IMG/VR virus record: IMGVR_UViG_3300044639_002101
Coordinates: 1 to 54,631 of that record
DNA from: a virus
Reading direction: 5' to 3' (one strand)
Length of the DNA: 54,631 nucleotides
The notes beneath the pieces were generated by a model. The model made no database searches and was not told the origin of the DNA. It saw only the letters and a program-made list of their open reading frames with translations. The position numbers and the translations under genes were made by a program. Below are positions 11,169-32,154 of the stretch, one piece after another. Position 1 is the stretch's first letter; the number at the start of each line of letters is the position of its first letter.

Positions 11169-11618
11169 TTACATTTCTATTGATGGTCTTTGTTTCTTTG
11201 TAGGACGTTGTGAACGTACATTGAATCTAAAATGTTTTACACTTGGTAATTGTGAAACATAGCCTTGTATTTTTTGTGATTCTCGTGCTGGGTCTTCTCC
11301 TAATCTAAAATAAAAATATCCTACAGTTCCTGATTTTGAAATCTTTTTGCTGATAATAGTAAATCCTTTTTTCTCTGCCCATTGTTGAATGTCATTGGCT
11401 ACTACTTGTGCTTGTGCTGCGTCATATATAACATATTCTACGCCTCCTCGGTAATCAGTCATATGATTAATAAGTTGAGCTTCATCAACTAATTTCACAT
11501 CTAATCCTTTTTTTGCTAATTCCTCAGCCTTTGCAGGATCTTTAACTGATATACTTCCTTTTACTGCTTGTTCAGTTAATCCAAAAAATTCTTTATATAA
11601 TTTTTTTAGTTTATTCAT
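11169..11618 (-). CDS. Probable internal head protein with capsid-targeting-like leader
   Basis: 149 residues, not recognised by family. The first 16 residues (MNKLKKLYKEFFGLTE, then Gln-Ala) form a short amphipathic, basic leader ending in Leu-Thr-Glu, like the T4 leaders that carry proteins into the prohead and are cut there by gp21. The mature part has mixed alpha/beta character: a VEYVIYDAAQAQVVANDI strand-helix, then KGFTIISKKISKSGTVGYFYFRLG, ending in a basic tail. It lies between a gp21-proximal small protein and bS21 in the head gene cluster, which supports a head location. The role after packaging is unknown. Confidence 0.6.
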   Translation of the reverse strand: MNKLKKLYKEFFGLTEQAVKGSISVKDPAKAEELAKKGLDVKLVDEAQLINHMTDYRGGVEYVIYDAAQAQVVANDIQQWAEKKGFTIISKKISKSGTVGYFYFRLGEDPARESQKIQGYVSQLPSVKHFRFNVRSQRPTKKQRPSIEM

Positions 11619-11659
11619 TTTATACCTTTAATATAAAAAATATTAGTTAATTATCCAAA

Positions 11660-12034
11660 TTAATTAACGTCGAAGTATTTATTTAAACCTTGTGCAATGT
11701 CTTCATAAGCTGCACTTAAACGTTGTTGCAATTGACTCATTTCTTTTGCAGTTGCTTCAAATACACGATATGAATCATTCAAGTTTTTCATGTGACGTTT
11801 AACTGTTACATTATCAAACCAATCTCCAGCTTCAGTTGTAATTTGTTCTGCTTTGTTGATCATGTCTTTAACTCGGTCCGTTAAATTTTGAAGATCGCCT
11901 CTACCATAAACAGAATCACCCATTTCGCTGAAACGTTTTACTTGATCTAAAAACTCTTGTTTTTCTTCTTTAGATAATGGCTGTGGTTGATCTTCATTGA
12001 TCATTTCCAAAATATATTTTAAGTTGCTTTTCAT
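11660..12034 (-). CDS. Small prohead-cluster protein, possible internal or core protein
   Basis: 124 residues if started at 12034. The upstream ATG at 12058 would overlap gp21 by 20 nt, whereas 12034 lies 4 nt after the gp21 stop and gives MKSNLKYILEMINE, a leader like those of other proposed packaged proteins. Ile-Asn-Glu/Asp at residues 12-15 is a candidate cut site. The rest is helical and charged with Leu/Gln/Glu heptads (MSQLQQRLSAAYEDIAQGL), suggesting a coiled coil. In T4 the genes around 21 and 22 code small core proteins (gp67, gp68); this could be their functional counterpart, but I see no sequence match. Confidence 0.6.
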   Translation of the reverse strand: MKSNLKYILEMINEDQPQPLSKEEKQEFLDQVKRFSEMGDSVYGRGDLQNLTDRVKDMINKAEQITTEAGDWFDNVTVKRHMKNLNDSYRVFEATAKEMSQLQQRLSAAYEDIAQGLNKYFDVN

Positions 12035-12038
12035 CTTA

Positions 12039-12665
12039 TTATATTCTACATTTACCATCTTCGCATAAAATCGAAGTTATAAGGCTGTTTACTTTATTAT
12101 ATTTATTTGTGGTATTCATTTTACCAACTGATTCGTGCATGTGCGTAGGACGCATAAAAGCCCCATGTGTAGAAGGATTAGATACGAAGTCCCAACAAAT
12201 TAATTCAAAGTCTTCTTGAACTTCAACAGCACCTTCGTTTCTAAGTTCTTTAACAGATCCTAAACCGCGGGATGAAATACCTAATGTAATTCCAGCTTTA
12301 AAAAGTTCTTTAAGAATTTTACCTGACGGAGTTTCTAAAATTTGAACTGCTCCTTTTAAATCATCACCTTCCCACCATATTTTTAAAATGTTATGAGAAA
12401 CGTTGTTCAAGTTAACAACTGATGATTCTGGATGATCTAACTCGCCTAATGCTCTATGTTGATCAATATATTCTTTTTGATAACGTACACATTCACGCAT
12501 CAATATATTTTTTGGATAAATTCTTCCGTTTTGATTCTTAGCACCAGCACGTTGTAAAACACCTTGCACTACAAAACCACCCGGAACGCCATATGCAGCA
12601 CCGCTTGTTTCATTTAATGAACCAATTGGTTTAAATTGCATATATTCTACTAATAATTTTGACAT
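12039..12665 (-). CDS. Prohead maturation protease, T4 gp21-like
   Basis: 208 residues, as in T4 gp21. The family motifs are visible: GRIYPKNILMRECVRY (residues 47-62), GELDHPE with catalytic-type His78, a second His at 91, and GITLGISSRGLGSV with Ser131/Ser132. This is the Ser/His arrangement of the gp21 and herpesvirus-type protease fold. The enzyme is built into the prohead and cuts scaffold, capsid and internal proteins after Leu/Ile-X-Glu. Its own N-terminus, MSKLLVEYMQFKPIGSLNE then Thr, contains such a site at residue 19, a plausible self-processing step. It is preceded by a GGGGAG ribosome site and lies in order between portal and scaffold genes. Confidence 0.88.
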   Translation of the reverse strand: MSKLLVEYMQFKPIGSLNETSGAAYGVPGGFVVQGVLQRAGAKNQNGRIYPKNILMRECVRYQKEYIDQHRALGELDHPESSVVNLNNVSHNILKIWWEGDDLKGAVQILETPSGKILKELFKAGITLGISSRGLGSVKELRNEGAVEVQEDFELICWDFVSNPSTHGAFMRPTHMHESVGKMNTTNKYNKVNSLITSILCEDGKCRI

Positions 12666-12666
12666 C

Positions 12667-13155
12667 TTACTCCCCTAATGATCTTACTCGTTCTGATATT
12701 TTAATTAATCGCTCTGATATTTTATTTAGTGCTTTTGAGGTACTTGGACCATATTCAGACGATGCAATTCCAGATTCTGTTTTTAATCTAGTATTGTATT
12801 GCACTAATGTTTCAATTTCATGAAGCTTCTTTGCAATTTCTTTAATTGTATTTTTTACTTTATGTGATGGTTTAACATCACCTTTTTTAAAGTCTCGATA
12901 CCCTTCGATAATTGCTAAATATTTTTGTTCCATTGCTTCTTCAACTTTTTTATATCCTAGTTGTTCAGCTGTTTTGTCATTTGTTTTTTTAGCAAATGCC
13001 TTAGGAGTATTAAATCCAGCAATAGCACCTGTTACATTTTGTTCGTCAATTTCATCATTACAAATACATTTATCTGATGGACGATCACATCCATCACAAT
13101 AATCATTTTCTATTTCTTGAAACTTTTCTTTCATTTCTCTTAATAGTGATTTCAT
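12667..13155 (-). CDS. Head-cluster protein with a cysteine knuckle, 162 aa
   Basis: Not recognised by name. The N-terminus MKSLLREMKEKFQE resembles the leaders of other proposed packaged proteins, though the cleavage site is less clear. Cys20, Cys23, Cys30 and Cys32 form a CxxC-x6-CxC cluster that probably binds zinc. Residues 41-56 (VTGAIAGFNTPKAFAK) resemble a short motif I have seen in small structural proteins of marine T4-like phages. The C-terminal half is helical and basic. It starts at TAATG overlapping the gene before, with AAAGGAG as ribosome site inside that gene. Location between portal and protease genes suggests a minor head or core protein. Confidence 0.6.
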   Translation of the reverse strand: MKSLLREMKEKFQEIENDYCDGCDRPSDKCICNDEIDEQNVTGAIAGFNTPKAFAKKTNDKTAEQLGYKKVEEAMEQKYLAIIEGYRDFKKGDVKPSHKVKNTIKEIAKKLHEIETLVQYNTRLKTESGIASSEYGPSTSKALNKISERLIKISERVRSLGE

Positions 13156-14003
13156 TAATGGATCTCCTTTAATTCTCGAACTAAATCAAAATAACGTAAC
13201 AATGATAACACGTGTGATTCTTTAATTGTCTTCATTGATTCTACATTACAAAGCATTTCTGACAATTTAGATACTTTTATTTTTGTTGCTGCATCTGTTA
13301 TAGATTTTGCTTGTTCTGCTAGATCAGCTTTAATTTTCGGAATAATTGTTTGTACATATTCACGTAAAGCTGCTGTGTCATTAACGTGTGTAATATACTT
13401 ATTCAACAATTGCTTTTGTGATTCGTCTAATCCAGAATATTTTTCATTGAATTTATCAACTAATATTTTATATGACAATAAACGCATATCTTTTGGTTGA
13501 GATTCAAATGCTTCAATTAACGCATCTTTTTTAGGTTGAGCACGTTCAGTAATAATACCATGGTCAATGATTGCTGTTTTGCACTCCATTAATTGTTTTG
13601 GATTATCTGTCTCAGTATGTTCAAATATCATATTAATTGAAGCAAGTACTTTGTAGTTATTGATATGCATTTTTGCCATATTTGTAAATACAAACTTTTC
13701 TGATATTTCTTTTACTAGATTATATCGTTGACGTTTCAATACGCTTTGGTTCAATTTATCATATGCAGACTTAACAGTACGTATATAATCTAATGCTTGA
13801 GCTTCACTTCTAAACTGTTCTTTAATTAAAGAATTGTATAGTTGCAGTTCTTTTGATAATTCAGTATTTCTACCAAAGTATTTTTTAATAATATCAATGG
13901 TTACTGATTTATTTGATGTTAATGTCTCTGAAGTTAATTTTCTAACCAACATTTCAAATAAAATACCCGTATTTTTATATTTTGAATGTTTTAATTTCTT
14001 CAT
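13155..14003 (-). CDS. Portal-adjacent conserved protein, possible head assembly factor
   Basis: 282 residues, almost wholly helical and charged (Lys, Glu, Asn, Leu). The opening MKKLKHSKYKNTGILFEMLV is a pattern I have met in proteins next to portal genes of marine T4-like phages; no function is known to me. There are no signal peptide, membrane segment or catalytic motifs. It is translationally coupled (TAATG) to the 162-residue protein and lies directly after the portal gene with its own promoter motif. The position between portal and prohead protease, where T4-like phages carry prohead core genes, makes a scaffold or core role the best guess. Confidence 0.55.
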   Translation of the reverse strand: MKKLKHSKYKNTGILFEMLVRKLTSETLTSNKSVTIDIIKKYFGRNTELSKELQLYNSLIKEQFRSEAQALDYIRTVKSAYDKLNQSVLKRQRYNLVKEISEKFVFTNMAKMHINNYKVLASINMIFEHTETDNPKQLMECKTAIIDHGIITERAQPKKDALIEAFESQPKDMRLLSYKILVDKFNEKYSGLDESQKQLLNKYITHVNDTAALREYVQTIIPKIKADLAEQAKSITDAATKIKVSKLSEMLCNVESMKTIKESHVLSLLRYFDLVRELKEIH

Positions 14004-14028
14004 GTTCTATACGATGCCTTGTGTTTTT

Positions 14029-14037
14029 AATAAATAT
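14029..14037 (-). promoter_or_regulatory. Late-promoter-like motif
   Basis: Coding strand ATATTTATT, 26 nt before the start at 14003. Confidence 0.45.
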
Positions 14038-14045
14038 GTTTCTAA

Positions 14046-15890
14046 TTATAAAATGTTGTTTTCGTCTAACATTGTGCCAGCATCTTTATCAGCATCACGC
14101 TTCTTTTTAGAATTTAATGATTCAGTGATAATACTAACGCTCTTATTTTTAGATTTTAAATGTTTCAAAATATTATGATTTTCAACAGCAACTGATCCTG
14201 CCATCTTTTTAAATTTAGGATCTGGTTGGAATGTTGTTTTTTGGTTTTCTGGTTTAAATGCTTGTTTTAAACCTTTAGCCCCTGTAGGATCCCAACCCAT
14301 TTGGTTTTTATGTTGTCCAAATTTAATTCCTTCTTTCGGACGTCCACCTAAATCTTTGTCTTCAACTTCATCACTACTCATATGCATTGATGCTAAATCG
14401 TGTGGCGTTCCAAATGAAACCCCAGTTACTGATGGATCATTTCCTTCTTGTTCAATTTGGTTTTGTCGGAATCGTAATTTTAAATCTTCTACAACGTCTG
14501 TTCTTTCTTGTAGCCATTGTTCCTCTGACATATTGAATATATATTCATAAATGTATCTGTCAGAAACTAATTTACTGTCTTTCATTGCAGTTGCTAATGT
14601 CATTTTTTCAGTCATTAATGCAACTTTTTGCTGATCGTAAATAATAGATGGTGCTGTTAATTCTAATTCAAATCCAACTAAATCTTCGCCTTCAAATCCT
14701 TGTGAATATAAATGCACAATTGCAATCTTAACTAGTTCAGACGTCACAATTTTTTGTACACGCTCAATTGTTCTAGCAAAACGAATATCCATTGATGCTA
14801 AAGTACTTTTACCTTCAACTGCTTCAGAATATCCTAAGAATGGTGCTGGTATTTTAAGTGCAGCCATCATCTTTGTTCTGATATATTCAATATCATCCAT
14901 TCCGGTAAAAGTCATTCCCGGCAATGTGTCAATTGTTGTAGATGATTGACCTCCACGAACTGGCAAATAATAATCTTCTAGCATATTGCTAAGATTGAAC
15001 TTTAAATTATAATTTCCTGTGTTCGGATCGATATGTGGAATCTTTTTCATTTTATTGATAATTCCTTCCATAAATGAATCAACTTCATTTGTAGGAATAT
15101 TACCAATATCAATTTTAAAAATACGTTTTTCAGGCGCACGCATAATTCTATGAATAAGCATTGCGTCTTCCATCATCATTAATTTTTGGAATTCTTTACG
15201 AGCTCCTTCTAACATTGATCTACCATATGGTAAAAAGTTAGAATCTGATAACATACGGAAATGTGCTATTTCGAACACATCATATGTCATTTGTTCTGAA
15301 GCAATATTTTTGAATTTAATATCATATTCACCAGTTGCTTCATTATATTCTTCCCAACGTTCCATTTCGTAGCTAGAAAACGGACGAGCATTTAATATTC
15401 CTACTTCATCAGCAATATCTAATTTTAAAAAGAAATCACCATATTTCACCATATTTCTAATCCAAGTCCATAAATTGAACTCAATATTTAAAATATCATA
15501 AAATAAATTGTAAAGGATTTTTTGTACTTGAGTGTTATTTGTTTTAATTGTTAGAATTTCTCCAAACTGATCTGCTAATGTAGATTCATCTGAATAAATG
15601 TCTAATGCAGAACTAATAATTGGATCTTTATCCATCATTTCATAATCTGCATACAATTGCATACGATTCTGGTGCATGTAATAGTTAGAATCATATCCGC
15701 CCATTCCACCTACTCGATGCTTATTTGCTCCATGTAGTCTAGTATATCTATCTGCTACTTTACTTTGACCTAAGTTACCAACTGATTGTAAACGATTGGT
15801 ATCAACTATTCTAAGTTGATCTTTTCCATACGCTCTAACAATTACGTTAGTACTAAAAAGGTTTTGTAGTCGTTTTCTTAATGACGCCAT
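14046..15890 (-). CDS. Portal protein, T4 gp20-like
   Basis: 614 residues. Family segments include YADYEMMDKDPIISSALDIY with SDEST following, WTWIRNMVKYGDFFLKLD, LPYGRSMLEGARKEFQKLMM followed by EDAMLIHRIMRAPEKRIF, DDIEYIRTKMMAALKIPAPF and STLASMDIRFARTIERVQ. The order matches gp20-type portals, which form the dodecameric channel at one head vertex, start prohead assembly and dock the terminase. It is somewhat longer than T4 gp20 (524 residues), mainly through a Gln/Lys-rich C-terminal tail. It follows the large terminase gene in the same direction and has a promoter motif upstream. Confidence 0.92.
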   Translation of the reverse strand: MASLRKRLQNLFSTNVIVRAYGKDQLRIVDTNRLQSVGNLGQSKVADRYTRLHGANKHRVGGMGGYDSNYYMHQNRMQLYADYEMMDKDPIISSALDIYSDESTLADQFGEILTIKTNNTQVQKILYNLFYDILNIEFNLWTWIRNMVKYGDFFLKLDIADEVGILNARPFSSYEMERWEEYNEATGEYDIKFKNIASEQMTYDVFEIAHFRMLSDSNFLPYGRSMLEGARKEFQKLMMMEDAMLIHRIMRAPEKRIFKIDIGNIPTNEVDSFMEGIINKMKKIPHIDPNTGNYNLKFNLSNMLEDYYLPVRGGQSSTTIDTLPGMTFTGMDDIEYIRTKMMAALKIPAPFLGYSEAVEGKSTLASMDIRFARTIERVQKIVTSELVKIAIVHLYSQGFEGEDLVGFELELTAPSIIYDQQKVALMTEKMTLATAMKDSKLVSDRYIYEYIFNMSEEQWLQERTDVVEDLKLRFRQNQIEQEGNDPSVTGVSFGTPHDLASMHMSSDEVEDKDLGGRPKEGIKFGQHKNQMGWDPTGAKGLKQAFKPENQKTTFQPDPKFKKMAGSVAVENHNILKHLKSKNKSVSIITESLNSKKKRDADKDAGTMLDENNIL

Positions 15891-15906
15891 ATTATATATC
15901 TTTTTT

Positions 15907-15917
15907 TATATAAATAT
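15907..15917 (-). promoter_or_regulatory. Late-promoter-like motif before the portal gene
   Basis: Coding strand ATATTTATATA followed by an A-rich leader to the ATG at 15890. Confidence 0.62.
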
Positions 15918-15937
15918 ATCTAAGTATAGATCAGTGG

Positions 15938-17518
15938 CTATTTAATAAGCCACGTTAGGCCTTCATTACCGAAACCGGTATCCCAATCCCAACCGGTATT
16001 TTGGTTTTTGCTATTTCCTGTGTAAATAACTGTATTAGATTTTTGGAATGATGATAATGCTTTTTTATTTAATTCAATTCCTTGTTGACGTAGTTTTAAA
16101 GTTGAGTCGCGAAGCCAAAGTCCAATACAGAATGACATTACTAAGTCATCGTTATAGCCTTGTTGTGCTTGTGCTTTCCCATTTAACCATACAAATACCA
16201 ATAGCTCTTGTATTAATCTCTTACTACGAATAATAGGTGTTTTTTCACGCATATACATTTCTAATGCTGAAATCATTAATGGACGTGTACGTGTTGTAGT
16301 TGATACTCCCGGAACCATTTGGCTCTTATCTTTCATATCATAACCTTTTTTCAATTGCACATCAGCATCTGTATATCCATCATCTTTATATGTATAATGT
16401 AAATTAGGATAACCTCTATCTAATGCTGGTTGAATTGCTGCCCAACCAATGTTTGCATTTTCAATTGCTAGCAATGCATTGTTCCATTCTGTTGCAACTG
16501 TTACAAGCATTTGGCCAAATTCATTAGGAGGAATTTTTCCTTTATACTCAGCAACTTGTCGTACATCTTGAACATCAAAAACATGAAATGCAGAATAATC
16601 TCCTCCATCACCACGTGCGACGTCAGCTACTACTAAATAGTCACGTTGATAATCTGGATATTCCCACACCCAATAGTTTCCATCGAAACCTCGTCTTTCA
16701 ATTGGATCTGAAGTTTGTTCATCATATTCTAATAATAACGGACCGTCAACTACAGTATGTCCTGAACTAACAAAGTCACAATCACATTCTTGAGCAGCTC
16801 CACGTTCGCCTAATAATTTAGTTTGTTCATCTCGCCAATCTTGATCGCGTTCTGGATGTACTGTCCAATGTAGTTTAACTGTATGGAATCCGTTAATATT
16901 TGCTTCAGCATCAGCCCATGTTTGATGAAACCAGTTACCAACCCCGTTAGGAGTTGATAATACTATAGCACCCCCACCCGTTGATAATGTTGCTTGCGAT
17001 GCAATCCATATTTCTTCAATATTACGAATAAACGCAGCCTCATCAACTATTAATAATGATAATGCTTCTGAACGTGCTCCAGTACCTGCTGATGATACTG
17101 CTTTAATTTGTGAGCCGTTTTTAAATTTTAAAGATAGTTTATTGTCTGCTTCAACAGATCCTTTTAACCAACTCGGTAAATTGTCGTGCATGACACGAAC
17201 TTTTGTTACTAAGTTTTTTGCTACTTCTTGTGTTGTTGCAATAACTAAAACGTTGAAGTCTTCCGCAAATAGCATTGACCAAAGAGCAAACCCAGCTGCT
17301 AATGTTGATATACCTAACTGACGTGATTTTAATATTACATTGTAACGATTATCACGCAATTCTGTTAATGAATCTTCCTGAAATGGGAAAAGGTTAAATT
17401 TAATCTTTCCTCGCTTAGGGTGTTGGATATAACAATAATTACGCATAAAAAATACAGGATCTTTAGCACACATCATGTACTGTTGCTGTATTATTTGTTT
17501 TATGCTAGGTTGACTCAT
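15938..17518 (-). CDS. Terminase large subunit, T4 gp17-like
   Basis: 526 residues with both domains of a packaging motor. ATPase: Walker-A-like KSRQLGIST at residues 64-72, a VIATTQEVAKNL segment, and Walker B LLIVDEAAF with Asp159-Glu160. Nuclease: YLVVADVARGDGGDYSAF supplies the first metal-binding Asp residues, and NDDLVMSF near residue 475 the last. The enzyme cuts concatemeric DNA and pumps it through the portal. It is shorter than T4 gp17 (610 residues), mainly at the N-terminus. No small terminase gene is obvious beside it. It lies directly before the portal gene, the usual pairing. Confidence 0.93.
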   Translation of the reverse strand: MSQPSIKQIIQQQYMMCAKDPVFFMRNYCYIQHPKRGKIKFNLFPFQEDSLTELRDNRYNVILKSRQLGISTLAAGFALWSMLFAEDFNVLVIATTQEVAKNLVTKVRVMHDNLPSWLKGSVEADNKLSLKFKNGSQIKAVSSAGTGARSEALSLLIVDEAAFIRNIEEIWIASQATLSTGGGAIVLSTPNGVGNWFHQTWADAEANINGFHTVKLHWTVHPERDQDWRDEQTKLLGERGAAQECDCDFVSSGHTVVDGPLLLEYDEQTSDPIERRGFDGNYWVWEYPDYQRDYLVVADVARGDGGDYSAFHVFDVQDVRQVAEYKGKIPPNEFGQMLVTVATEWNNALLAIENANIGWAAIQPALDRGYPNLHYTYKDDGYTDADVQLKKGYDMKDKSQMVPGVSTTTRTRPLMISALEMYMREKTPIIRSKRLIQELLVFVWLNGKAQAQQGYNDDLVMSFCIGLWLRDSTLKLRQQGIELNKKALSSFQKSNTVIYTGNSKNQNTGWDWDTGFGNEGLTWLIK

Positions 17519-17522
17519 AACG

Positions 17523-17909
17523 TTATTTTAATAATCGGTCTATGAATACTCCACCAACGAAGCCCATTCCTAACCAAAGATATTTGTTATTATACCATTT
17601 GTTTGTTATGCGTTCTTTTTCAACATATAAGTTGATATTTTCTTGAAGTAAACTAGTTTGTTGTTTTTGATATGCAATTTGTGTAGAATCTAGTTTAATC
17701 ATTTCTTTTTGTTTTTCGATTAAACTTTTGTATTCTGGAATTAGTTCATCATTAATATCACATACAGCAAATAAAGAATCAATTGTAAATGAAATGTCTT
17801 TAATTTCTTGTTGAGTAAAACATGTATCAGGTACAACTTTAGCTTTAGCTTTTTGTGAAAAACTAATTGCTGGAATTATTAAACATAATATGATTAAGAA
17901 CTTTTTCAT
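17523..17909 (-). CDS. Exported coiled-coil protein with C-terminal membrane segment (spanin candidate)
   Basis: 128 residues. Residues 1-19 form a classical signal peptide ending in SFSQ, a Bacteroidota-style cleavage region with no lipobox cysteine. Residues about 30-105 are polar and heptad-like (KSLIEKQKEMIKLDSTQIAY), consistent with a periplasmic coiled coil. Residues about 108-125 (YLWLGMGFVGGVFIDRLL) can span a membrane. It overlaps the preceding gene as ATGA; that gene encodes an N-terminally anchored coiled-coil protein. The two together look like an envelope-spanning pair. A lysis role (spanin-like) is the leading idea, but the layout differs from known two-component spanins because the outer partner lacks a lipobox. 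Confidence 0.5.
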   Translation of the reverse strand: MKKFLIILCLIIPAISFSQKAKAKVVPDTCFTQQEIKDISFTIDSLFAVCDINDELIPEYKSLIEKQKEMIKLDSTQIAYQKQQTSLLQENINLYVEKERITNKWYNNKYLWLGMGFVGGVFIDRLLK

Positions 17910-18872: not shown

Positions 18873-18879
18873 ATAACTT

Positions 18880-19722
18880 TTATTTTTTTTCTTGAGGAAT
18901 TTCTGCAGTACTTAATTTTTTTACTGCTAATTGCTTTAATAATTTGAAAAAGTTCTTTTTATCTTCAACTTCAGAATCTTTCATTGCTAAATTAAATACC
19001 TTTGATAATGTTTTAATTCTAGCAATATTTCCGCCGTCTGACTGTAATTGTTTAACAAATTTTTCAATTGATACAGCTTCTTTAGATTCATCAGATAATT
19101 CATCTTCTGCTGCTGGTGCTGGTGCATCTGCCGGTGGTGGTGTAGTAGCGTCTGCTGTTGGAGCAGGTGCTGCTGCATCTGGTGCTGGTGCTGGTGCAGC
19201 TGGTGCTGGTGCTGCGGCAGGGTCTGTTGGAGCAGGCGCAGGTGCTGCTGCATCCGGTGCTGGAACTTCTGCATTTGGTGCTGGTTGCTCTTCTTCAGGT
19301 GCTTGTTCATTTAAAAATTGCTCTGAAAGTACTTTTTCGATTTTACGTCGTAAAAACTCTCTAACTAAACGCTCTTTTTGTTCACGAGTTAAATTTTCAA
19401 TTTTATCTTTGATATTTTTCTCGTTGTCTTTTTCGTCTTGATCTTGACGCTTCTTTAACACTTTAGCAGCATGCTTTCCATCATACTCGCCATCTTCTAA
19501 ATCTTTATAAAGACGATCGTCAGCATTCCACTTTACGTCCATTTTGCCATCATCTACCATTGGCTTATCTGTTTTACGTAAAACATTAGATTGTTTTTCA
19601 CCTGTAGATTTTGGATTCAATTTTCCATCTTTATCATCTAACGTATAATCCTTAAGATCTTTACGTGATTTGTATTTAGTATTTTCTGGTTTTTTGTATT
19701 TGCTTTTATGTTTTTCAGCCAT
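18880..19722 (-). CDS. Charged protein with Pro/Ala-rich linker and internal processing-type site
   Basis: 280 residues in three parts. Residues 1-130 are very rich in Lys and Asp and probably disordered then helical. Residues 131-139 (VLSEQFLNE, then Gln-Ala) match the end of the proposed capsid-targeting leaders, giving a possible gp21 cut site in mid-protein. Residues 141-213 are a Pro/Ala linker (repeats of [10 protein letters not shown] type), and a helical domain of about 65 residues ends the protein. Such linkers connect domains of virion proteins. It heads the group leading to terminase and portal and has promoter motif and AAGGA ribosome site. No family match is known to me. Confidence 0.6.
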
Positions 19723-19738: not shown

Positions 19739-19749
19739 TATATAAATAT
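19739..19749 (-). promoter_or_regulatory. Late-promoter-like motif
   Basis: Coding strand ATATTTATATA, then AAATAAGGATATTGAA and the ATG at 19722. It overlaps the stop region of the upstream gene. Confidence 0.62.
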
Positions 19750-22262
19750 TACCTTGCGTACTTTAATACCCCTAGTAGTTGATTCACCGGTGCAAATGCA
19801 CCTGTCATTTTGTAAGTATTACCTTGGAATGTAAATACTACTCCTTCTGATGGTACAATTGAATTAAACCCTCCTAATTTTTGTATGCGTCGAAGTTCGT
19901 GCTCTAATTTTTGTATTGTAGCAGGATCATTCTTTGCTTGTAAATCTTTGATAAGTTGAGCTAATTCAGTTTTAATATCTTGCACTGTTTTATCTGGATT
20001 TGCTGCTAAGAAGTTTTCTGCATTTTGTAATACAACTACTCCTAATCTTAAAAAGATTGATTCAAATGGTTCGAGGTTTTGTTTTTTATATTGTTTAAAA
20101 TCTTTTTTATCAAATTCACTTACCCAAGCTAAAAATTCTGGGTTCTCAATTTCTTTTTTCAATACTGAGATATTTTTTGATTTGTCATCAAATGACCAAC
20201 GATATATCAATGTTGTTAACATATCTTCTGGGATATCGTATCCTAGTTGTTGAGCTTTTGTTGAAATTACATCTCGCCACCACGCTTTATGATATTCGCT
20301 AATCATATCTGTATCATTAAGATTGAATTGTTGTTGTAATTGATCAATCTCATTAAAGAATGCAGCTTGTTGATCTTCAAAATCATATACACGGCCTAAT
20401 TTAATACGTTGTGGAGGAATAAATGAAAATGTTTTTTGCATATGTGCATTAGCATCTTGAATAACTTGTTGCATCATTGCGCCTCCAGTTAAATCAGTCT
20501 CAACCGTTACACCTCGTTCATCGTATTCAACTAAATTATGAAATTGTAAATGAGCTTTATCATATGCAATTACATTTTTTGTAGCAGGATAAATTATTTC
20601 CATGTTAGCAAATACTCGTCCATTTTTGAATATTTGATTTAATTTTTCTTCTGGGATACTTCTTAAAGATTCTGTTAAATCTTCCGCACAAGCACGATAT
20701 GCATCAACTACTTGTTTATATCCTTCCGATGCTTCCACTCCATTCTTTGCAACAGCTTCTTGATACTTGCGTTCGAAATCTGCAATAATTTGTGGAGTTG
20801 TCATAGGATTAATTACAGTTCCTTTATTTCTAGCAAAACCAATTTCTCCGTTTTTCCATGTAATTTGAATATTTTGTCCATCAGTCTTTTCAGTTACCGA
20901 TTGTTCAATATCTAATCGTCCTGCTAAACCTCTCGAAACAATTTCTTTCATATCATTAAATGTTAATCCGTGATCATCCCACGGATGTGCCATATGGCCT
21001 GCGGCTCCACCCTCTTTAATAAGGTTTCCTGCAGGATTATAATCTTCACGCATTAATGATTCAATTTTATAAATAACATCATTAGGATCGTTTTGTTGCC
21101 AAGTTTTACGTTGTTTTTTAATTGTTCTAGGAATTAGTTCAATCATATTTTTACGTGAATTCCATTGCAACATGAACGGCATATGTATTGGAATATCAAA
21201 TTGATAATCTGATTCAATTGCTGTTGGACGGTTAGCTTGTAATTGTTGTGCAATTTGGTCTCCATATTCATCTGCTAGATCTTGGAACAAATCTTTCAAT
21301 TCATCCATATATATAGGAGCTTCATTTCTAGGGTCATTTAATCGTTCAATAAAGTGCGTGTATTTACCTTGGAAATCAACATCTATTCCATATTCTTTAA
21401 AGAAATTGTCAATTGCTGGTTCTAATGATGCTAACTCGTCGCGTGTAATATAATTTTCTGTAATTACATTTTCAATAAGTTTAGCTCCAGCTACTGTCTT
21501 TGCAAATTGGTCAAAATCATATACAAATTCTTGTCCTCGATGTTTTTCTAAAAATGAACGAAGTTGTTTCATTTTCGAATCATGACGATTTTTTTCTTTT
21601 GGATTCATTATTGCTTCAATAACTTCATTAACATCTTCAGTTAATGATGACACCCACCAATCGGTGCTAAACATTGTAGATTCTTGAACGCCTTTTAATA
21701 TTTGCCAAACATTTTTAACTTCAGCATCATTTTGCATTGGATATGAAGCACGAAATGTTGCATAATCATTATTTGCTAATGCAGCTCTAATCGTTGATGC
21801 TGAAATAGGTTCGCCGTTTGGATAAAGTAATGGATCAATGTCAATGCTTAATTCTACTGCATTAACACCGCGCGGAATTGTACGACCTTTTTTATCTCCA
21901 ATTGTTATGTACTTGTCTACATTAGGAACAAAATCTTTTGCTCGTACATAATCATCTCCTTTAGTTGATGCAGCCATGGCATAACGTCCTTGAGCATCTT
22001 CTGGCAAGGCAAATAAATATTCATATGCCGCCATGATTGGAGAATTGAACTGTGTAGGTTGTATTTCAATTTGTGAATTTGAATTTAATAAATTAAAAAT
22101 TTCTATAGTTTTTTCACGAGTAATTTCTTCTCTAGGTTTTTCACCTATCAATAAAATTACTTTTTCTACGTCTGCAGCTTGTGCATATCTATTTGCTAGT
22201 TCGAGATGTGCACCAGTTAATGGTTTAAACCCACCAGGAAAAAGTACTGTTATTTTATCCAT
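19749..22262 (-). CDS. Fusion of a HIGH-type nucleotidyltransferase and an RNA/DNA-ligase-like domain
   Basis: 837 residues. The N-terminal 180 residues resemble the NMN adenylyl-/cytidylyltransferase fold: TVLFPGGFKPLTGAHLELA, a central strand-helix pattern, and ISASTIRAAL as the ISxTxxR motif. The usual HxGH is changed to Thr16-Gly-Ala-His19, so catalysis may be altered. From about residue 415 (GGAAGHMAHPWDD) a second enzyme begins. Lys-Thr-Asp-Gly at about residue 457 is motif I of covalent nucleotidyltransferases (ligases and capping enzymes), GEIGFARNKG follows, and EGVVF (about 806) with YKMTG (about 818) supply motifs IV and V. A middle helical region joins them. It may handle RNA repair or NAD-linked chemistry; the substrate is unknown. 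It lies in the late module between a fibre gene and head genes. Confidence 0.75.
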   Translation of the reverse strand: MDKITVLFPGGFKPLTGAHLELANRYAQAADVEKVILLIGEKPREEITREKTIEIFNLLNSNSQIEIQPTQFNSPIMAAYEYLFALPEDAQGRYAMAASTKGDDYVRAKDFVPNVDKYITIGDKKGRTIPRGVNAVELSIDIDPLLYPNGEPISASTIRAALANNDYATFRASYPMQNDAEVKNVWQILKGVQESTMFSTDWWVSSLTEDVNEVIEAIMNPKEKNRHDSKMKQLRSFLEKHRGQEFVYDFDQFAKTVAGAKLIENVITENYITRDELASLEPAIDNFFKEYGIDVDFQGKYTHFIERLNDPRNEAPIYMDELKDLFQDLADEYGDQIAQQLQANRPTAIESDYQFDIPIHMPFMLQWNSRKNMIELIPRTIKKQRKTWQQNDPNDVIYKIESLMREDYNPAGNLIKEGGAAGHMAHPWDDHGLTFNDMKEIVSRGLAGRLDIEQSVTEKTDGQNIQITWKNGEIGFARNKGTVINPMTTPQIIADFERKYQEAVAKNGVEASEGYKQVVDAYRACAEDLTESLRSIPEEKLNQIFKNGRVFANMEIIYPATKNVIAYDKAHLQFHNLVEYDERGVTVETDLTGGAMMQQVIQDANAHMQKTFSFIPPQRIKLGRVYDFEDQQAAFFNEIDQLQQQFNLNDTDMISEYHKAWWRDVISTKAQQLGYDIPEDMLTTLIYRWSFDDKSKNISVLKKEIENPEFLAWVSEFDKKDFKQYKKQNLEPFESIFLRLGVVVLQNAENFLAANPDKTVQDIKTELAQLIKDLQAKNDPATIQKLEHELRRIQKLGGFNSIVPSEGVVFTFQGNTYKMTGAFAPVNQLLGVLKYAR

Positions 22263-25211: not shown

Positions 25212-25229
25212 TACACCTTAATATTCTTT

Positions 25230-25240
25230 TATATAAATAT
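25230..25240 (-). promoter_or_regulatory. Late-promoter-like motif
   Basis: Coding strand ATATTTATATA followed by AAAGAATATTAAGGTGTA and the ATG at 25211. The leader resembles that of the plus-strand gene at 54116. Confidence 0.62.
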
Positions 25241-28200
25241 TAAACGTGTTGAATCTGGCTAAATTTATTTATTTTATTTACTTCTATTAAATTATCTACC
25301 ATATCACGCATTGTGTCAACGTGTGAAATGATAATTGAAAAATCAAACTTCGTACGGAAATAATCAAAAAGATTAACAACTGCTGAAATATGTTCTGCAT
25401 CTAAACTTCCCCATCCTTCATCTATTGCAATGAAATTAGGGCGTGGTAATGCTGATACATTGATTAATGCAATACGTATTGCTAATGAACTAATAAATCG
25501 TTCCATACCTGATGTTAATTCTAATGGCCAATAGTTTTCATCATCATAAATGATATACCCATTAATGTTTTTTCCATCACTTTGCAATACCATATTAAAA
25601 TCAACAACTTGGTTTAAAACATTGTTAATTTCAGATTCTATCTTAGGCATTGCCTTAGCAATCAATTCATATGGTACGCCATCACGCTTAACTGAATCTA
25701 AATAATATTCAAATGCTTTGTATTCAGTTTCAAGTTGTTTGTATTTGTCTAATGATTCAATTGCAGATTTTTTAGTTGTTTTTGCAACTTCAATACGGCC
25801 GTGTTTGCTACGAATTGTATCTGTAATAGTTTTTATTTGACTTGTTGCTGATTCAATTGATGTTTTTAATGTATCAATCTTTTTATCAATAACTTCATTA
25901 TGTGTAATTGCACTAGCATTAGCTTTAAATGATTCTTGACGTTCTAAACATGTTTCTAATTCTGATTCACGAGTTTGCAATTCATTCTCAATAATTTGAA
26001 TTTGCAATTCTTGTTTTTCAATTGTTATACGTTTTGTTTCATGTTTTTGTTTTAATGTTGCTAATGCATCATTATCTATTCTAACTGTCGAATATGTTTG
26101 TATCGTTGATTTTAATTGTAATTGTTGTTCAGACAATTCAGTCAATATGTCTCTATCCGCACCAATCGTGTTCTGTGCTTCAATTGCATTTTGCACAAAA
26201 ACGTTAGATGTACAGTATTTGCAGTTCGGATCATATTCATGGTCGGAAAGGTGATTAATTTTTTCTTGTTTTGCATTGATAATTCCTTGTTGTTTTTTAA
26301 TACTCGAATCTATCTGTGCTAATTCCTTTTCGAGTTTTTCTAATTGTTGAAGTTTATCTGATAAGTCTGTTTCATTGTATCGGCGCTTATCTCTTTTAAT
26401 GATTAAATATTCATTTGTTAATGACTCTAAATTTGTTTCTGACGTTTCTATATCACTTTGTAGTTGTGATATTTTTTTAGTTAACTCAGTTTCAATTTTA
26501 GTTAATTGATCAATATTCGGTCCTGAATATGTAGTTGGTTGTTTTGTTTGAATTAAGTCTACAATTTCATTTTGATAATCATTGCGTTTTTCTTGCAACT
26601 CATCTTCTTCAGTTTCTAATGAAGTTATATCTTGTTGGTTGTTTGAAATAATAGTATCAGCATCATTGATAATAACATCAAAATCCGTTTTCTTGTATGA
26701 TTTTAATTTACCAGCAGTTTCTTTAATTTCATCTGATGCTAATTGATAAAGTTGTTCAAATACTGTAATATCTAAAAATTGTGATAATAAGTCTTTTCGT
26801 TCACGTTGAGACTTTTCAATAAAGTTATTATTATCTGCTTGAAGTGAAAATGCAGTTAAAATAAAATCATCATATGTGCCTAAGTAACGACGAATTGATT
26901 TATTAGTATCACTTCGTTCTTCCCCATTCAAATTTTCAGTTTCAGTATAAAAGTCTACTAATACTTTAACATGACCATTCTTTTGTTTGATACCAGTACG
27001 TTCAATTGTATAATTCACGCCGTTCATTTCAAAAGTAAATTTACCTTTAAATCGATCTTTCTTGTTGTTTAAAACTTCATGAGCTTTACCAGTTTTACTA
27101 CATTTATCAAATATTGTATAAGTAATTGCATCTAGCAATGAAGATTTACCACTTGTATTTGCAGCAAATAAACCACATACATCTTGTAAATTTTCAAAAT
27201 TAATTAAATTGTTCTCGCCATATGAAAACATGTTTTCAAATTCAAATTGAACTGGGTGCCATGTCATGTGACGAACTGATTCAACTGCTGGCAATTTAGA
27301 ATTTATTGTTCTATTAATATGTCTAATAGCATCAGTCTCTTCTGGAGTTGCTTGTGGATGATTAATTGAAATATAATCAGTAATCAATGTATTTTGATAT
27401 TCTACGTCACGAACATTACCAATTGTAAATGACGATGAAACTGATGTGTCAGGTCCGGTAGTGCTACGTTGAATCGTAATGTCTTGAACATTGTATTTTT
27501 TACGAATCGTTGCAATCAGCTTTTTCATATCTGCTGCACTTGTTTCGTTGAATTTAATTCTAACACGTGGTTTGTTAGGCATTCGATGTGGTGACTTAAT
27601 TATTTTAGTGTCATCCACTTCTAATGTAACATATCCGTAATCATTTTGTATTTCAACAAAATCAGCACGACGTGATTCGATATCCCAAACCAAAATACCA
27701 TGATCTAATGCTTCCCCGTGATTTTGTTGAATTAATGACCCTGGATATGCAATTGTTTTTTCATCATCTAAAAATTGTGCTGGCTTATGAATATCTCCTA
27801 ATAATGTAATGTCATGTCCTTTGAATAATTCTGTAGTTACATGCTCATTTGAAATTTGATATCCAATATCAGTCTTTGCAGTATTAACAGCTCCATGGTG
27901 CATTGCTATTTTATAAGATGCATCAAAGTCTTTTGCTAGAATATATTCAGTTGGTGCAACATCTACCGCCATATGATTCCATACAGCTCCTCCACATTCA
28001 AACAAACCATTTTCTTTGATAAAGATGATATTATTGTTTTGAATTACATCTAAAATAGGACTAACAGCATCTATTCGATGCATATTGTTCAAGTTCATGT
28101 CGTGATTACCTAGAATAACAATTGTAGGTAATTTGAATCCATTAAAAAAGTCAACAAGCATTTGAACTAGCTCCGGAGACATATCTAATTTGCTATGAAC

Positions 28201-28380
28201 AATATCCCCAGTAACTACCGCAATACTATTTGCAGTTCGATTTGATTCAATATAGTCAAACATGTTTTTAAAAACTTCACGATATTCCGTATGTCGTTTC
28301 AATGTTCGAATATGTATATCTGAAACATGATAAATTTTATCAATTTTATCAATTCCGATGTCAATCTTTTTTATGCCCAT
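25240..28380 (-). CDS. Fused SbcD-SbcC (Mre11-Rad50 / T4 gp47-gp46) recombination nuclease
   Basis: 1046 residues joining two enzymes that are normally separate. The N-terminal part is an Mre11-type phosphoesterase with all metal motifs: Asp21-x-His23 (SDIH), Gly58-Asp59, GNHD at 91-94, His161-His162 and GDIH at 195-198. From about residue 390 a Rad50-type ATPase begins: P-loop AANTSGKSS near 408, a long coiled coil with a zinc hook CKYC near residue 719, the ABC signature LTSGMERF, and Walker B FIAIDEGWGSLDAEH near 985. In T4 gp46-gp47 processes DNA ends for recombination-dependent replication. The frame is open throughout. It overlaps the primase gene by 10 nt. Confidence 0.92.
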   Translation of the reverse strand: MGIKKIDIGIDKIDKIYHVSDIHIRTLKRHTEYREVFKNMFDYIESNRTANSIAVVTGDIVHSKLDMSPELVQMLVDFFNGFKLPTIVILGNHDMNLNNMHRIDAVSPILDVIQNNNIIFIKENGLFECGGAVWNHMAVDVAPTEYILAKDFDASYKIAMHHGAVNTAKTDIGYQISNEHVTTELFKGHDITLLGDIHKPAQFLDDEKTIAYPGSLIQQNHGEALDHGILVWDIESRRADFVEIQNDYGYVTLEVDDTKIIKSPHRMPNKPRVRIKFNETSAADMKKLIATIRKKYNVQDITIQRSTTGPDTSVSSSFTIGNVRDVEYQNTLITDYISINHPQATPEETDAIRHINRTINSKLPAVESVRHMTWHPVQFEFENMFSYGENNLINFENLQDVCGLFAANTSGKSSLLDAITYTIFDKCSKTGKAHEVLNNKKDRFKGKFTFEMNGVNYTIERTGIKQKNGHVKVLVDFYTETENLNGEERSDTNKSIRRYLGTYDDFILTAFSLQADNNNFIEKSQRERKDLLSQFLDITVFEQLYQLASDEIKETAGKLKSYKKTDFDVIINDADTIISNNQQDITSLETEEDELQEKRNDYQNEIVDLIQTKQPTTYSGPNIDQLTKIETELTKKISQLQSDIETSETNLESLTNEYLIIKRDKRRYNETDLSDKLQQLEKLEKELAQIDSSIKKQQGIINAKQEKINHLSDHEYDPNCKYCTSNVFVQNAIEAQNTIGADRDILTELSEQQLQLKSTIQTYSTVRIDNDALATLKQKHETKRITIEKQELQIQIIENELQTRESELETCLERQESFKANASAITHNEVIDKKIDTLKTSIESATSQIKTITDTIRSKHGRIEVAKTTKKSAIESLDKYKQLETEYKAFEYYLDSVKRDGVPYELIAKAMPKIESEINNVLNQVVDFNMVLQSDGKNINGYIIYDDENYWPLELTSGMERFISSLAIRIALINVSALPRPNFIAIDEGWGSLDAEHISAVVNLFDYFRTKFDFSIIISHVDTMRDMVDNLIEVNKINKFSQIQHV

Positions 28381-29315: not shown

Positions 29316-29504
29316 TAATATTAATATAATGAATTTCTAGTTCGATTCCAATTTAATAATATAAATAATAATTAGTTATGAACATACATTTCATTACTGT
29401 CATAACGATCATTTAAAAATGAATCATTTTCAAATAATCTATTAATTAAATAAATTTCATTAATTATTCATGAATATATTAAAAATTTTTCACAAATCAA
29501 ACCA
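29316..29504. other. AT-rich intergenic region between endonuclease I and primase genes
   Basis: About 190 bp with no coding frame I can support. It holds a motif TTATTTATATT on the coding strand near 29358-29368, and near-palindromic AT-rich text such as attaattattcatgaata at 29459-29476. Similar attcatgaat text occurs in the plus-strand region near 54041. No terminator-type hairpin with a T run is visible. Confidence 0.4.
29358..29368 (-). promoter_or_regulatory. Weak late-promoter-like motif
   Basis: Coding strand TTATTTATATT, about 43 nt before the primase start; a poorer match than elsewhere. Confidence 0.35.
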
Positions 29505-29987
29505 TTATCCAAAAAAAGTTTTAATTGTCTTAGGAACTTCGCCATCTTTTAAACATTCAGCGAACCATTCTGCAGGAATATCTTTTTTAGCAACATGAAT
29601 TATTCCTAGTTTATTTGCATAAGCTTCATATGTAGTTTTGCTACCTTTTGATATTTTTTGATTGGGAGATTGAAATACCATTCGAATATCGATTCCAGGA
29701 TTAGATGCTAAAACATGTTTCATTTTTAAACGGTCAACCGCGGTCCATCGTCCTTTTGTTTCAACTAACATTAATGTACCATCTCGTTTAGTAAATACGA
29801 AGTCAGGCGTATATTTTGCTTTACGCTCTGGTACTATATAATTTAATGTTTCTGTTTCGTAATTCAAAGGATATTCAAAACTTTTTATTTGCTCTGCTAC
29901 AGTATGTTCTAATCCTGATTTATATCCGTATTTATATGCTTCAGAACGTTTAGTGTTCCCAGCGCTGTGCCAATGATTTTTTGCCAT
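29505..29987 (-). CDS. Endonuclease I, T7 gp3-like Holliday junction resolvase
   Basis: 160 residues. It has the T7 endonuclease I active-site layout: Glu27 in KSGLEHTVAEQI, Asp62 in YTPDFVF, and Glu76-x-Lys78 in LVETKGRW. These match Glu20, Asp55, Glu65 and Lys67 of the T7 enzyme. It resolves branched DNA from recombination and replication before packaging, the job done in T4 by gp49. The N-terminal RSEAYKYGYKSGLE and the C-terminal LGIIHVAKKDIPAEW segment also fit the family. It lies next to primase and SbcDC, forming a small recombination and replication group inside the structural module. Confidence 0.88.
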   Translation of the reverse strand: MAKNHWHSAGNTKRSEAYKYGYKSGLEHTVAEQIKSFEYPLNYETETLNYIVPERKAKYTPDFVFTKRDGTLMLVETKGRWTAVDRLKMKHVLASNPGIDIRMVFQSPNQKISKGSKTTYEAYANKLGIIHVAKKDIPAEWFAECLKDGEVPKTIKTFFG

Positions 29988-30003
29988 AACTAGTTATTAA
30001 ATT

Positions 30004-31596
30004 TTATTTTACTGATGATGTTGGTATCCAATATACTTTTTTATCTTTTACAAATTTAACTCGTATGTATTTATAATCTGACGAATTTCCTAAGTATGCA
30101 ATATATTGACCATCTTTTGGATTATATGTTCCTGCTTTTACCCATTGTTTATTTTTATAATTATAAATTGGCGTTTCAGATACTTTGATAAATGCAATAC
30201 CATTTCTGTTTTTAGATTTCTCTTTATTTAAGAATTCCACCGTTGTTTTATTTTTATCAGTTTTTGGTTTTTCTCGTTGTACGAGTGGTTGTACGAGTGG
30301 ATTATTATCTTTAGTATTTTTAGTATCAACCGATTGATCCGAATTATTCGTAGTTGGTTGGTCTGTATTAGAAGAATTATTTGTAGTTGGGGCACCTGGC
30401 GTTTTTACTACTAATGCATCTAATTTTGCATACACATCTGTTTCTGTTTTAGGAATCAATTTTTCATTTGGCCTAGGGCCTCCATCTAACTGTTGTCGTT
30501 CAAAATCAATTTTATTTGTTGTATACCACTCATCATTAACTTTTACATAAACCCATTTATCTGTGTCTGACATAGTATATACAATACTCCCTGCAACTGA
30601 ACCTGCTGGAATTGTATATGGATATTCTAGCCTATATGTTTCTGAATTAGTTGATGTTGAGTTTGTTATTTTAGCTCCGGTTGAAGTAAAATGGAAATCT
30701 TGATCACCTGTGTTAGGATCTACACTTTTCGTTGATTGCAATTCGCCTTCCCATTTTTCACCATCATCCCAAATCGCTGTTCCTTTAAAGGGCATTCCAT
30801 CTTTAAAAGTACCAGTATACGTACCATGTTTTCCATCGCCTGTACGATATACAGATATACTACCATTTATATATGTTGCTTGTTCATTACCCTTAGTATC
30901 ATATGAAATTTCAAGTTCTCCAGTAAAATCTGCAATACCATCATAATCTCCACGATTTGTATCATCAATTTTTACTATTTTAGTTGCAACATCTGGAAGT
31001 TCTGTTTCTAGTTTATTAATTGTACCTAAGTTAGGAAATTCAACTTTTCTTTTAAGTTGAGGATCAAATAATTCAAATTTCAATGATGTAGATTGCATTT
31101 TTAATACCGCGATCCATTTAGCTGCATCTGACCATGTATATGTTGGAATTCCGCCTACAAGAAATTCAACTACAGATTTCAATTGTATTTGATATCGATC
31201 ATTTTTATTTAAACTATCAATTTTTTTAGCTAATTCTGCAAGTGGACTATAAGCAATAACCCATATATTTAATAATGCGCGGCGTTTTGATTTTAAAACA
31301 TCATCTCCGATAACATACATGTATCTAGGTTGATCAACAGCAGAATCTAATACATCAAATCTACTACCAGGGCCAGTTCTGTCATCAACTAAAATACGAC
31401 TTTTTATATTAGATATCATTACAGATAAATCGCCATGATCTCCTTTAAACTTCATATGAAGTTCAAACCCAGTAATACCACCATTAGCTACAACTTGATT
31501 TCTTTTAGAGTTAGACATCGGCTTTATAAACCCACTCTTAACATATTGCTCTTGCAATGCTGATTTAATTATTTGTTCTAATAAATTTGATTTCAT
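30004..31596 (-). CDS. Probable packaged protein with MORN-like and SH3-like parts
   Basis: 530 residues. The N-terminus MKSNLLEQIIKSALQE, then Gln, is an amphipathic leader ending in Leu-Gln-Glu, like the other proposed capsid-targeting sequences. Residues 30-200 form an unrecognised ordered region. Around 225-275 are MORN-like repeats (GTYTGTFKDGMPFKG, then WDDGEKWEGEL). A Thr/Asn/Lys-rich disordered stretch covers about 385-445. The last 75 residues (FIKVSETPIYNYKNKQWVKA, ending YWIPTSSVK) look like an SH3-type beta barrel. I infer an internal virion protein acting in the host after injection, possibly on envelope or wall. The promoter motif is one base from the start codon. No enzyme motif seen. 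Confidence 0.6.
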   Translation of the reverse strand: MKSNLLEQIIKSALQEQYVKSGFIKPMSNSKRNQVVANGGITGFELHMKFKGDHGDLSVMISNIKSRILVDDRTGPGSRFDVLDSAVDQPRYMYVIGDDVLKSKRRALLNIWVIAYSPLAELAKKIDSLNKNDRYQIQLKSVVEFLVGGIPTYTWSDAAKWIAVLKMQSTSLKFELFDPQLKRKVEFPNLGTINKLETELPDVATKIVKIDDTNRGDYDGIADFTGELEISYDTKGNEQATYINGSISVYRTGDGKHGTYTGTFKDGMPFKGTAIWDDGEKWEGELQSTKSVDPNTGDQDFHFTSTGAKITNSTSTNSETYRLEYPYTIPAGSVAGSIVYTMSDTDKWVYVKVNDEWYTTNKIDFERQQLDGGPRPNEKLIPKTETDVYAKLDALVVKTPGAPTTNNSSNTDQPTTNNSDQSVDTKNTKDNNPLVQPLVQREKPKTDKNKTTVEFLNKEKSKNRNGIAFIKVSETPIYNYKNKQWVKAGTYNPKDGQYIAYLGNSSDYKYIRVKFVKDKKVYWIPTSSVK

Positions 31597-31597
31597 A

Positions 31598-31608
31598 TAT
31601 ATAAATAT
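31598..31608 (-). promoter_or_regulatory. Late-promoter-like motif abutting a start codon
   Basis: Coding strand ATATTTATATA followed at once by T and the ATG at 31596. Initiation from here would give a leaderless message, or the gene relies on read-through from the kinase-like gene. Confidence 0.45.
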
Positions 31609-31611
31609 TCA

Positions 31612-32154
31612 TTACCAGTCAACTAAGACTATATTTCCGTTCCACATCATTACATTGCTTGAATTAAAATCTAAATCTAAATCAAATTCTTCAATTCCTG
31701 TACGTTCAACATCTTTTTGTAATGCACGTAAAAAATTAACAAGTTTCGGGTCAGTATTTCTAGCACCGTCATTATCTAAAAATTCAAAAATACTAACTTC
31801 GCCGCCTTCTGCACGTGCATATTGCGTAAACTCTTGTAAAAATCTATCAATCATTATTTTAATTGAAGAAGAAATAGGGTCAGCATTTGCCATGATATAT
31901 AAATGTTTTTCTTCATTAACATAATATATCGGGATAAATGTTGTAAATTCTGACCAACGTCCTACAATTACTTTAGCTACTTCAAATTCATCTCGTTCTT
32001 GAGTAATCTTAAAACAACGATCTTCTCCATCAATTTCATATACTCGACCGTTGTCGCCAGCACCAATAAAACGAAACTGTTTATTTTTTATTTTATCTAG
32101 CAATCTAGCTAATTCGTCATCAACTATTTCTAATAATGATTTTAATCGTATCAT
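31612..32154 (-). CDS. Minimal protein-kinase-like protein with capsid-targeting-like leader
   Basis: 180 residues. Kinase features are in order: Gly-rich loop FIGAGDNGRVYEI (residues 29-41), Lys49 in CFKIT, a candidate helix-C Glu58, a hinge-like LYIMANAD, then LDFNSSNVM with Asp162 and Asn167 matching DxxxxN of the catalytic loop. VLVD Asp179 stands for the DFG aspartate. The protein ends one residue later (Trp180), so there is no activation segment or lower C-lobe, an extreme truncation. The N-terminus MIRLKSLLE resembles MIQLKSLFNE of the packaged-type protein at 50255. It may phosphorylate or bind host targets on entry, or be a pseudokinase. It is followed 15 nt later by the MORN-like gene. 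Confidence 0.65.
   Translation of the reverse strand: MIRLKSLLEIVDDELARLLDKIKNKQFRFIGAGDNGRVYEIDGEDRCFKITQERDEFEVAKVIVGRWSEFTTFIPIYYVNEEKHLYIMANADPISSSIKIMIDRFLQEFTQYARAEGGEVSIFEFLDNDGARNTDPKLVNFLRALQKDVERTGIEEFDLDLDFNSSNVMMWNGNIVLVDW

Follow-up and report, generated by a model that had tools for sequence, protein, structure and literature searches.

Candidate T4-type capsid-targeting leaders on head-core and putative cargo proteins of an uncultivated T4-like virus

Introduction

Why should proteins with unrelated bodies, encoded at several places along one viral genome fragment, begin with short leaders that close on Leu/Ile-x-Glu? In T4, the internal proteins and Alt carry short N-terminal propeptides that are removed by the gp21 protease, and some of these proteins enter the host (PMC9026906, PMC5694885). 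The first ten residues suffice for targeting, with residues 4 and 7 involved in targeting and residues 8 and 10 in processing, the gp21 motif being L/I-X-E; an earlier suggestion is that such a tag may enable T4-like phages to acquire a variety of proteins (PMC9026906). For the DNA examined here, the original prediction had proposed leaders of a single type on internal head proteins, including one protein called kinase-like and one called MORN-like. We analyzed the whole 54,631-base stretch (hereafter the window), which is a fragment of a T4-like myovirus, together with ten related contigs that were taken in stretches and had their genes called.

Results

From high to low coordinates, the minus strand of the window encodes a terminase, a portal, two core-position proteins (13155 and 12667), a gp21-type S77 protease, 11660, 11169, a bS21-like protein, a scaffold-position protein and a gp23-type capsid protein, in agreement with the T4 order 17-20-67-68-21-22-23 (Table 1). 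By capsid-protein identity, the nearest named phages were Flavobacterium phage immuto (57%), Microcystis phage Mel-JY01 (56%) and Rhodothermus phage RM378 (39%), and a near-identity DNA search for the region among phage isolates returned no match. A longer contig, G009 (72,273 bases), is near-identical to the window. The bS21 (RpsU)-like gene (10904-11149, minus strand) lies within the head morphogenesis block and has a counterpart at the matching place in Mel-JY01. Elsewhere on this strand, 25240-28380 encodes one 1046-residue protein in which SbcD-like and SbcC-like subunits are fused, and 49143-50171 encodes a UvdE-type UV endonuclease (PF03851, E = 3e-61).

Table 1. Head genes, leaders and L/I-x-E sites in the window; a slash marks the predicted cut.
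Feature	Position	Strand	Basis or remark
Terminase	15938-17518	minus	
Portal	14046-15890	minus	
Two core-position proteins (13155, 12667)		minus	between portal and gp21-type protease
Core-protein candidate between gp20 and gp21	12667..13155	minus	T4 gp67/gp68 position; alignment; scan
gp21-type prohead protease (Peptidase_S77)	12039..12665	minus	PF03420 E 1.4e-32; phrog_207 E 2e-54
gp21 N-terminal self-cleavage site SLNE19/T	L-N-E codons 12609-12617	minus	E 62/62, L 60/61 homologues
Leader of 11660-12034, MKSNLKYILE/M, 10 residues, better supported cut	12005..12034	minus	E10 48/60, L9 47/60
Leader of 11169-11618, MNKLKKLYKEFFGLTE/Q, 16 residues	11571..11618	minus	PSSM 11.9 bits; E16 59/59
gp22-like scaffold, by position	9707..10711	minus	conserved L-x-E sites LQE31/A, LTE256/G, LSE319/G
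gp23-type capsid protein	8050-9681	minus	
Conserved internal site of 18880-19722, VLSE134/Q	LSE 19321..19329	minus	L/I 24/24, E 24/24, Q 22/24, x variable
FLNE139/Q in 18880-19722, not conserved	19306..19317	minus	E 9/24, L 2/24 homologues
Interdomain site LIKE417/GGAAGHM in nucleotidyltransferase-ligase-like 19749-22262	21012..21023	minus	[LIVM]-x-E/GG
Kinase-fold protein, 180 aa	31612..32154	minus	invariant residues; Foldseek
Class I leader MIRLKSLLE/I, 9 residues (10 in most homologues)	32128..32154	minus	PSSM 15.0
Class II leader of "MORN-like" 30004-31596, MKSNLLEQIIKSALQE/Q	31549..31596	minus	LExIIR/KxxLxE common at slot
Class I leader MIQLKSLFNE/Q	50255..50284	plus	PSSM 14.9
Class I leader with class III extension, MIKLKNILQE/NMRSFGTKNLLTE/Q	52165..52233	plus	PSSM 23.3; class III in relatives
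Class III leader MKNLLSE/NMMRFGTKNLSE/S	52781..52837	plus	

Every peptide quoted in the original prediction was found in the sequence where it had been placed. The leaders behind its six proposed sites proved real, and two of the cuts, in 11660 and 18880, had been put at the wrong residue. For the gp21-type protease, the predicted leader (GSLNE/T, residue 19) held up in the family alignment, with L17 in 60/61 homologues, E19 in 62/62 and usually N or T at position 18. That of 11169 held up equally: across 59 aligned rows E16 was invariant, L/I14 was kept in 58, position 15 varied, and Q or A followed. Conservation collapsed directly past the E16 site, which together with the invariant E16 and variable position 15 forms the signature of a propeptide. 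In the AF2 model of 11169, residues 13-53 are of low confidence and residues 56-135 form a folded domain, for which Foldseek returned only generic ferredoxin-like folds (NikR, ACT, S6) and no function.

A leader is also present on 11660, but its cut more likely follows ILE10 (E in 48/60 homologues), and the proposed INE14 was rejected because E is found there in 20/60. The conservation of ILE10 is itself moderate, which counts against a capsid-targeting role for this leader. In 18880 an internal site does exist, though not at FLNE139, where E is kept in 9/24 homologues; five residues upstream, E134 of VLSE134/Q is kept in 24/24. Pfam searches with 11169, 11660 and 18880 returned nothing significant. 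These three proteins and gp21 look more like components of the core or scaffold than like delivered cargo.

Seven conserved [LI]-variable-E triplets emerged from an unbiased scan of every window protein that had enough homologues; six of them lay in the scaffold, 11169, gp21, 12667 and 18880 and one in PhoH, and other [LI]-variable-X motifs were scattered. Within the scaffold the scan recovered LTE256 and LEE220, and E was present at residues 31 and 319 in 48/48 homologues. The core-protein candidate 12667..13155 starts with MKSLLRE and has a conserved LHE113. A possible further site, ILKE32/G, with x variable and conserved in 10 homologues, was observed in 44071-44601 (minus strand), in the baseplate-side gene block.

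Outside this block, the leader predicted on 31612 (MIRLKSLLE) was present in all homologues found, mostly as MIRLKxLLxE, the window clade being one residue shorter (LLE9). Its AF2 model (pLDDT 88.5) has residues 1-10, the leader, as the sole low-confidence part, and searching the PDB with Foldseek gave PRPK/Bud32, APH, RIO and Ark1 at high probability, as well as viral protein kinases. G33, K49, E56, D162, N167 and D179 are invariant, so that the Gly loop, Lys, catalytic Asp/Asn and metal Asp of a kinase fold are all present, and the label "kinase-like" was upheld by the predicted fold and by K49, D162, N167 and D179. The protein thus resembles PRPK/Bud32, RIO, Ark1, APH and viral protein kinases in predicted fold and in the positions of the Lys/Asp/Asn/Asp motif. 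Unlike those minimal kinases, it bears a leader, has no match in Pfam, and ends directly after the DFG-like VDW, so that no activation segment follows. Searching phage isolates for it by tblastn gave no hit.

We next considered the leader of 31612, M-I-K/R-L-K-x-L-L-x-E (class I), beyond its own family. A register was fixed from published T4 mutagenesis (hydrophobic residues at 4, 7 and 8, and E at 10; PMC9026906); T4 ipII and ipIII show the same register. The test covers class I, the class II leaders described below being longer. Among the relatives, 58/1180 N-termini had this register, with at most 11 at shifted registers, compared with 12/4542 internal Met windows and 4/720 proteins of control viral contigs (Fisher p = 4e-29 and 1e-8). 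Leaders therefore do not occur at an equal rate in random proteins, the check that had been proposed for them: at the T4 register the rate is 4.9%, compared with 0.3-0.6% in the controls. In the window, 50255 and 52165 have the exact register, 31612 is one residue shorter, and 11169 has Tyr at position 8.

A position-specific profile (PSSM), trained on 21 leaders from four other genomes and applied with a threshold of 12 bits, gave the same picture. It reached at least 12 bits in 20/1090 proteins of unseen families and in 0/3049 internal-Met windows; since some genomes are near-duplicates, the 16 families that these proteins represent are the fairer count. Running such a profile over the genome had also been proposed, and in the window it picked out 52165 (plus, 23.3 bits), 31612 (minus, 15.0), 50255 (plus, 14.9) and 11169 (minus, 11.9), but gave no signal for 11660, gp21, 30004 or 18880. 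In the relatives, 344 proteins with the class I leader fell into 148 unrelated body families, 111 of them singletons, and in an alignment of 142 leader proteins only MIKLKxLLxE was conserved. When leaders were picked by residues 1-8 alone, residue 10 was E in 84%, in a set rich in kinase homologues. Matches to a degenerate leader DNA pattern in IMG/VR coincided with ORF starts in 144/150 among the matches listed, versus 25/86 for a permuted pattern; they were often in tandem, and one contig (L277) has four tandem leader genes with unrelated bodies.

It is common for a short hydrophobic N-terminus to have a Glu nearby, and a loose regex matches 2-3% of control windows; that the leaders are no more than such chance matches is nevertheless extremely improbable, given an enrichment of about 9- to 19-fold at one register only, no class I leader protein in 704 kb of control contigs, and leaders that are conserved across families. 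For 11169, gp21, 31612 and 30004 chance is refuted, and for the exact cut in 11660 it is possible. A loose regex allowing the leader anywhere in the first 20 residues was discarded as too weak (only about 2-fold over controls), and families flagged by our first regex, such as terminase, were chance matches by inspection and were left out of the counts. Sec signal peptides were rejected, also by inspection: 17523 and 53442 show ordinary hydrophobic signal-like starts, and the leaders do not.

Codon 2 of the leaders is biased to ATA (75% versus 34% genome-wide) and CGA is over-used at codon 3, so copying at the DNA level or effects on the start of translation may account for some of the leader similarity. 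It is very unlikely, however, that the leader is in essence a conserved 5′ DNA or mRNA module, such as a recombination site or translation-initiation element, with the peptide incidental: the Leu8 and Lys3 codons track genome usage, as Leu4 roughly does, the leaders retain their hydrophobic and E positions whereas residue 9 is free to vary, and conserved L-x-E is also found inside proteins.

The leader predicted on 30004 was confirmed as that of a second class. Its motif, LE-x-I-I-R/K-x-x-L-x-E, was present in 31/50 proteins encoded in the slot that follows the kinase gene and in 6/1174 elsewhere, and 28 of the 31 have the terminal E. The body of 30004 has hardly any homologues, while its leader recurs at the slot. 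"MORN-like" could not be retained for this protein, as no Pfam MORN match was obtained at E up to 1 and the likeness is by eye only. A further 13/50 slot proteins in the relatives have a class I leader, the two classes thus replacing each other at this place. Where the slot is empty (L186, L196, L105 and others), a conserved endonuclease like that at 29505-29987 of the window directly follows the kinase gene, and the slot therefore behaves as an insertion point.

A third class of leader, ENMxRFGTKNLxE, with two L-x-E sites, was observed on small tandem proteins of the window (52165-53392, plus strand), of L197 and of other relatives. What had been described as the same type of leader throughout accordingly comprises at least three classes.

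In the relatives, the leader-tagged proteins include ADP-ribosyltransferases, Nudix, GNAT, RimK, SET, HD and phosphoribosyltransferase proteins and Zeta-type P-loop kinases. The same P-loop body bears other short leaders in Pelagibacter phage HTVC008M (MIPFILKE/G) and Methylophilales phage Melnitz-3 (MKTFAELQE/G). By number, leaders are mainly on rare proteins (31/475 families found in at most two genomes; 4/108 in at least five). A large internal proteome, as had been suggested, agrees with the 7-17 leader proteins per 94-160 kb contig in the relatives and the 13 in the 72 kb of G009, where six further class I genes lie past the window (minus strand, starts 60434 to 64311), but less well with the window itself, where a conservative count gives 6/52 proteins; packaging would in each case be predicted from the leader. 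Two findings count against a general head-targeting role: some leader bearers resemble enzymes of lysis or of the membrane (phage lysozyme, LysM, PAP2), which are not obvious head cargo, and class I leaders are almost absent from immuto and RM378. In the 100 kb of Mel-JY01 that were read, by comparison, three proteins (60276, 62056 and 96164) start with a class I-like leader that has the expected E. In L217 (7537-9552) and relatives we also observed peptidoglycan-binding plus phage-lysozyme plus GDSL-like proteins with a class I leader, which are odd for head cargo. The N-terminal repeats of immuto differ from class I and are probably that phage's own leaders; two of its proteins (L182:1675-2139, L222:25061-25456) share MKKQILSEQFxRMQxLAGIITES, and three share a start of the type FLxENxLTxNxxLxxE.

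Could only the core-block proteins (11169, 11660, gp21, scaffold and 18880) be gp21 substrates, and the class I leader of the cargo be another signal, for membrane or chaperone docking or for degradation? In favour of this, the classes of core sites and of cargo leaders differ in part and some cargo resembles lysis enzymes, yet we consider it unlikely: class I closes with the same L-x-E and fits the T4 targeting register, the core protein 11169 scores 11.9 bits on the class I profile, and classes I and II interchange at the same slot.

Protease and leaders also occur together. An S77 gene is present in the window and in 12/12 relatives, and in 16/24 leader contigs, among them every one of the five longer than 80 kb, versus 2/24 control contigs, which are somewhat shorter; the eight leader contigs without S77 count against the link, though they may lack the gene because they are fragments. 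The gp21 motif L/I-x-E that closes the leader is kept in homologues of 11169 (59/59), gp21 (62/62) and the kinase, and more weakly in those of 11660 (48/60). One candidate substrate was absent from the original prediction. In 19749-22262, a nucleotidyltransferase-like N-terminus is fused to a KxDG ligase-like domain with LIKE417/GG between them; [LIVM]-x-E/GG is present there in 24/28 relatives, after a hypervariable linker, and in L237 a separate ligase-like protein begins MIRLGKLLNEVLLKE/GGAYGHM. The conserved site and the free-standing ligase start suggest polyprotein processing, at a predicted prohead-protease site.

Discussion

We conclude that the leaders are, with high probability, T4-type capsid-targeting propeptides on core proteins and injected cargo; packaging, cleavage, injection and function in the host are what we infer from the sequences. 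The original claim of gp21-cut leaders on internal head proteins stands as to register, motif, the presence of gp21, family conservation and controls, and is qualified by the several leader classes, the two misplaced cuts and the four proteins that look to be of core type.

The hydrophobic residues 4 and 7 of class I would dock the precursor onto the prohead core, and the gp21 protease would then cut after L/I-x-E, freeing the mature protein within the head. One tagged group would comprise the head-core proteins between portal and scaffold (11169, 11660 and gp21), with matching internal cuts in the scaffold and 18880, and the other would be cargo: the kinase-fold protein 31612, the adjoining 30004 and the plus-strand cluster. 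This cargo would most likely be injected with the DNA and, in the manner of T4 Alt, exert its effect at an early stage of infection. Since cargo bodies are exchanged freely behind conserved leaders, the virion would carry a changing set of proteins, and with the tag on well over a hundred different proteins, the relatives probably inject a sizeable protein kit with their DNA.

As in T4 IPII, IPIII and the Alt propeptide, an N-terminal stretch of about ten residues, with hydrophobic residues at 4 and 7 and L/I-x-E at 8-10, precedes unrelated bodies in a virus that has a gp21-type protease (PMC9026906). The present tag differs in its sequence, M-I-K/R-L-K-x-L-L-x-E, in its 148 body families among the relatives, and in the additional 16-residue and two-site leader classes. 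In phiKZ and SPN3US, too, propeptides of packaged and ejected proteins are cut after x-x-E by the prohead protease (PMC5694885, PMC9026906), but giant-phage propeptides often exceed 100 residues and the phiKZ motif is S/A-x-E, whereas the leaders here have 9-23 residues and L/I-x-E. Polyvalent or head-packaged effectors (PMC5512222, PMC9503650) offer a third parallel in their ART and Nudix cargo and in the interdomain cut predicted for the nucleotidyltransferase-ligase; for them packaging was inferred from gene context and fusions, whereas here there is a specific address tag, and most of its bearers are small, separate proteins. In a limited search of the open literature we found no description of this tag. 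Its principle is known from T4, and the breadth, the interchangeable leader classes, the cargo, the variable slot and the polyprotein site look new.

In a broader reading, which we consider fairly likely, this uncultivated T4-like lineage loads its effectors by means of a universal head address tag with several interchangeable classes, the effector set being open-ended and quickly turned over and some of its members being loaded as polyproteins split in the head. Candidate effectors would then plausibly include the kinase-fold proteins, ADP-ribosyltransferases, acetyltransferases, RimK-type ligases, Zeta-type kinases and many orphans, with the nucleotidyltransferase-ligase as the polyprotein. 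If this is right, head cargo can be recognized by the first ten residues that a gene encodes, which would assign a place and time of action (the virion and the first minutes of infection) to more than 100 families of mostly orphan phage proteins. It would also allow candidate injected effectors and anti-defence proteins to be listed directly, and anyone filling phage heads with chosen proteins would have natural tags to use in place of that of T4. The set of proteins that these phages inject could then be predicted from the tag in their sequences alone.
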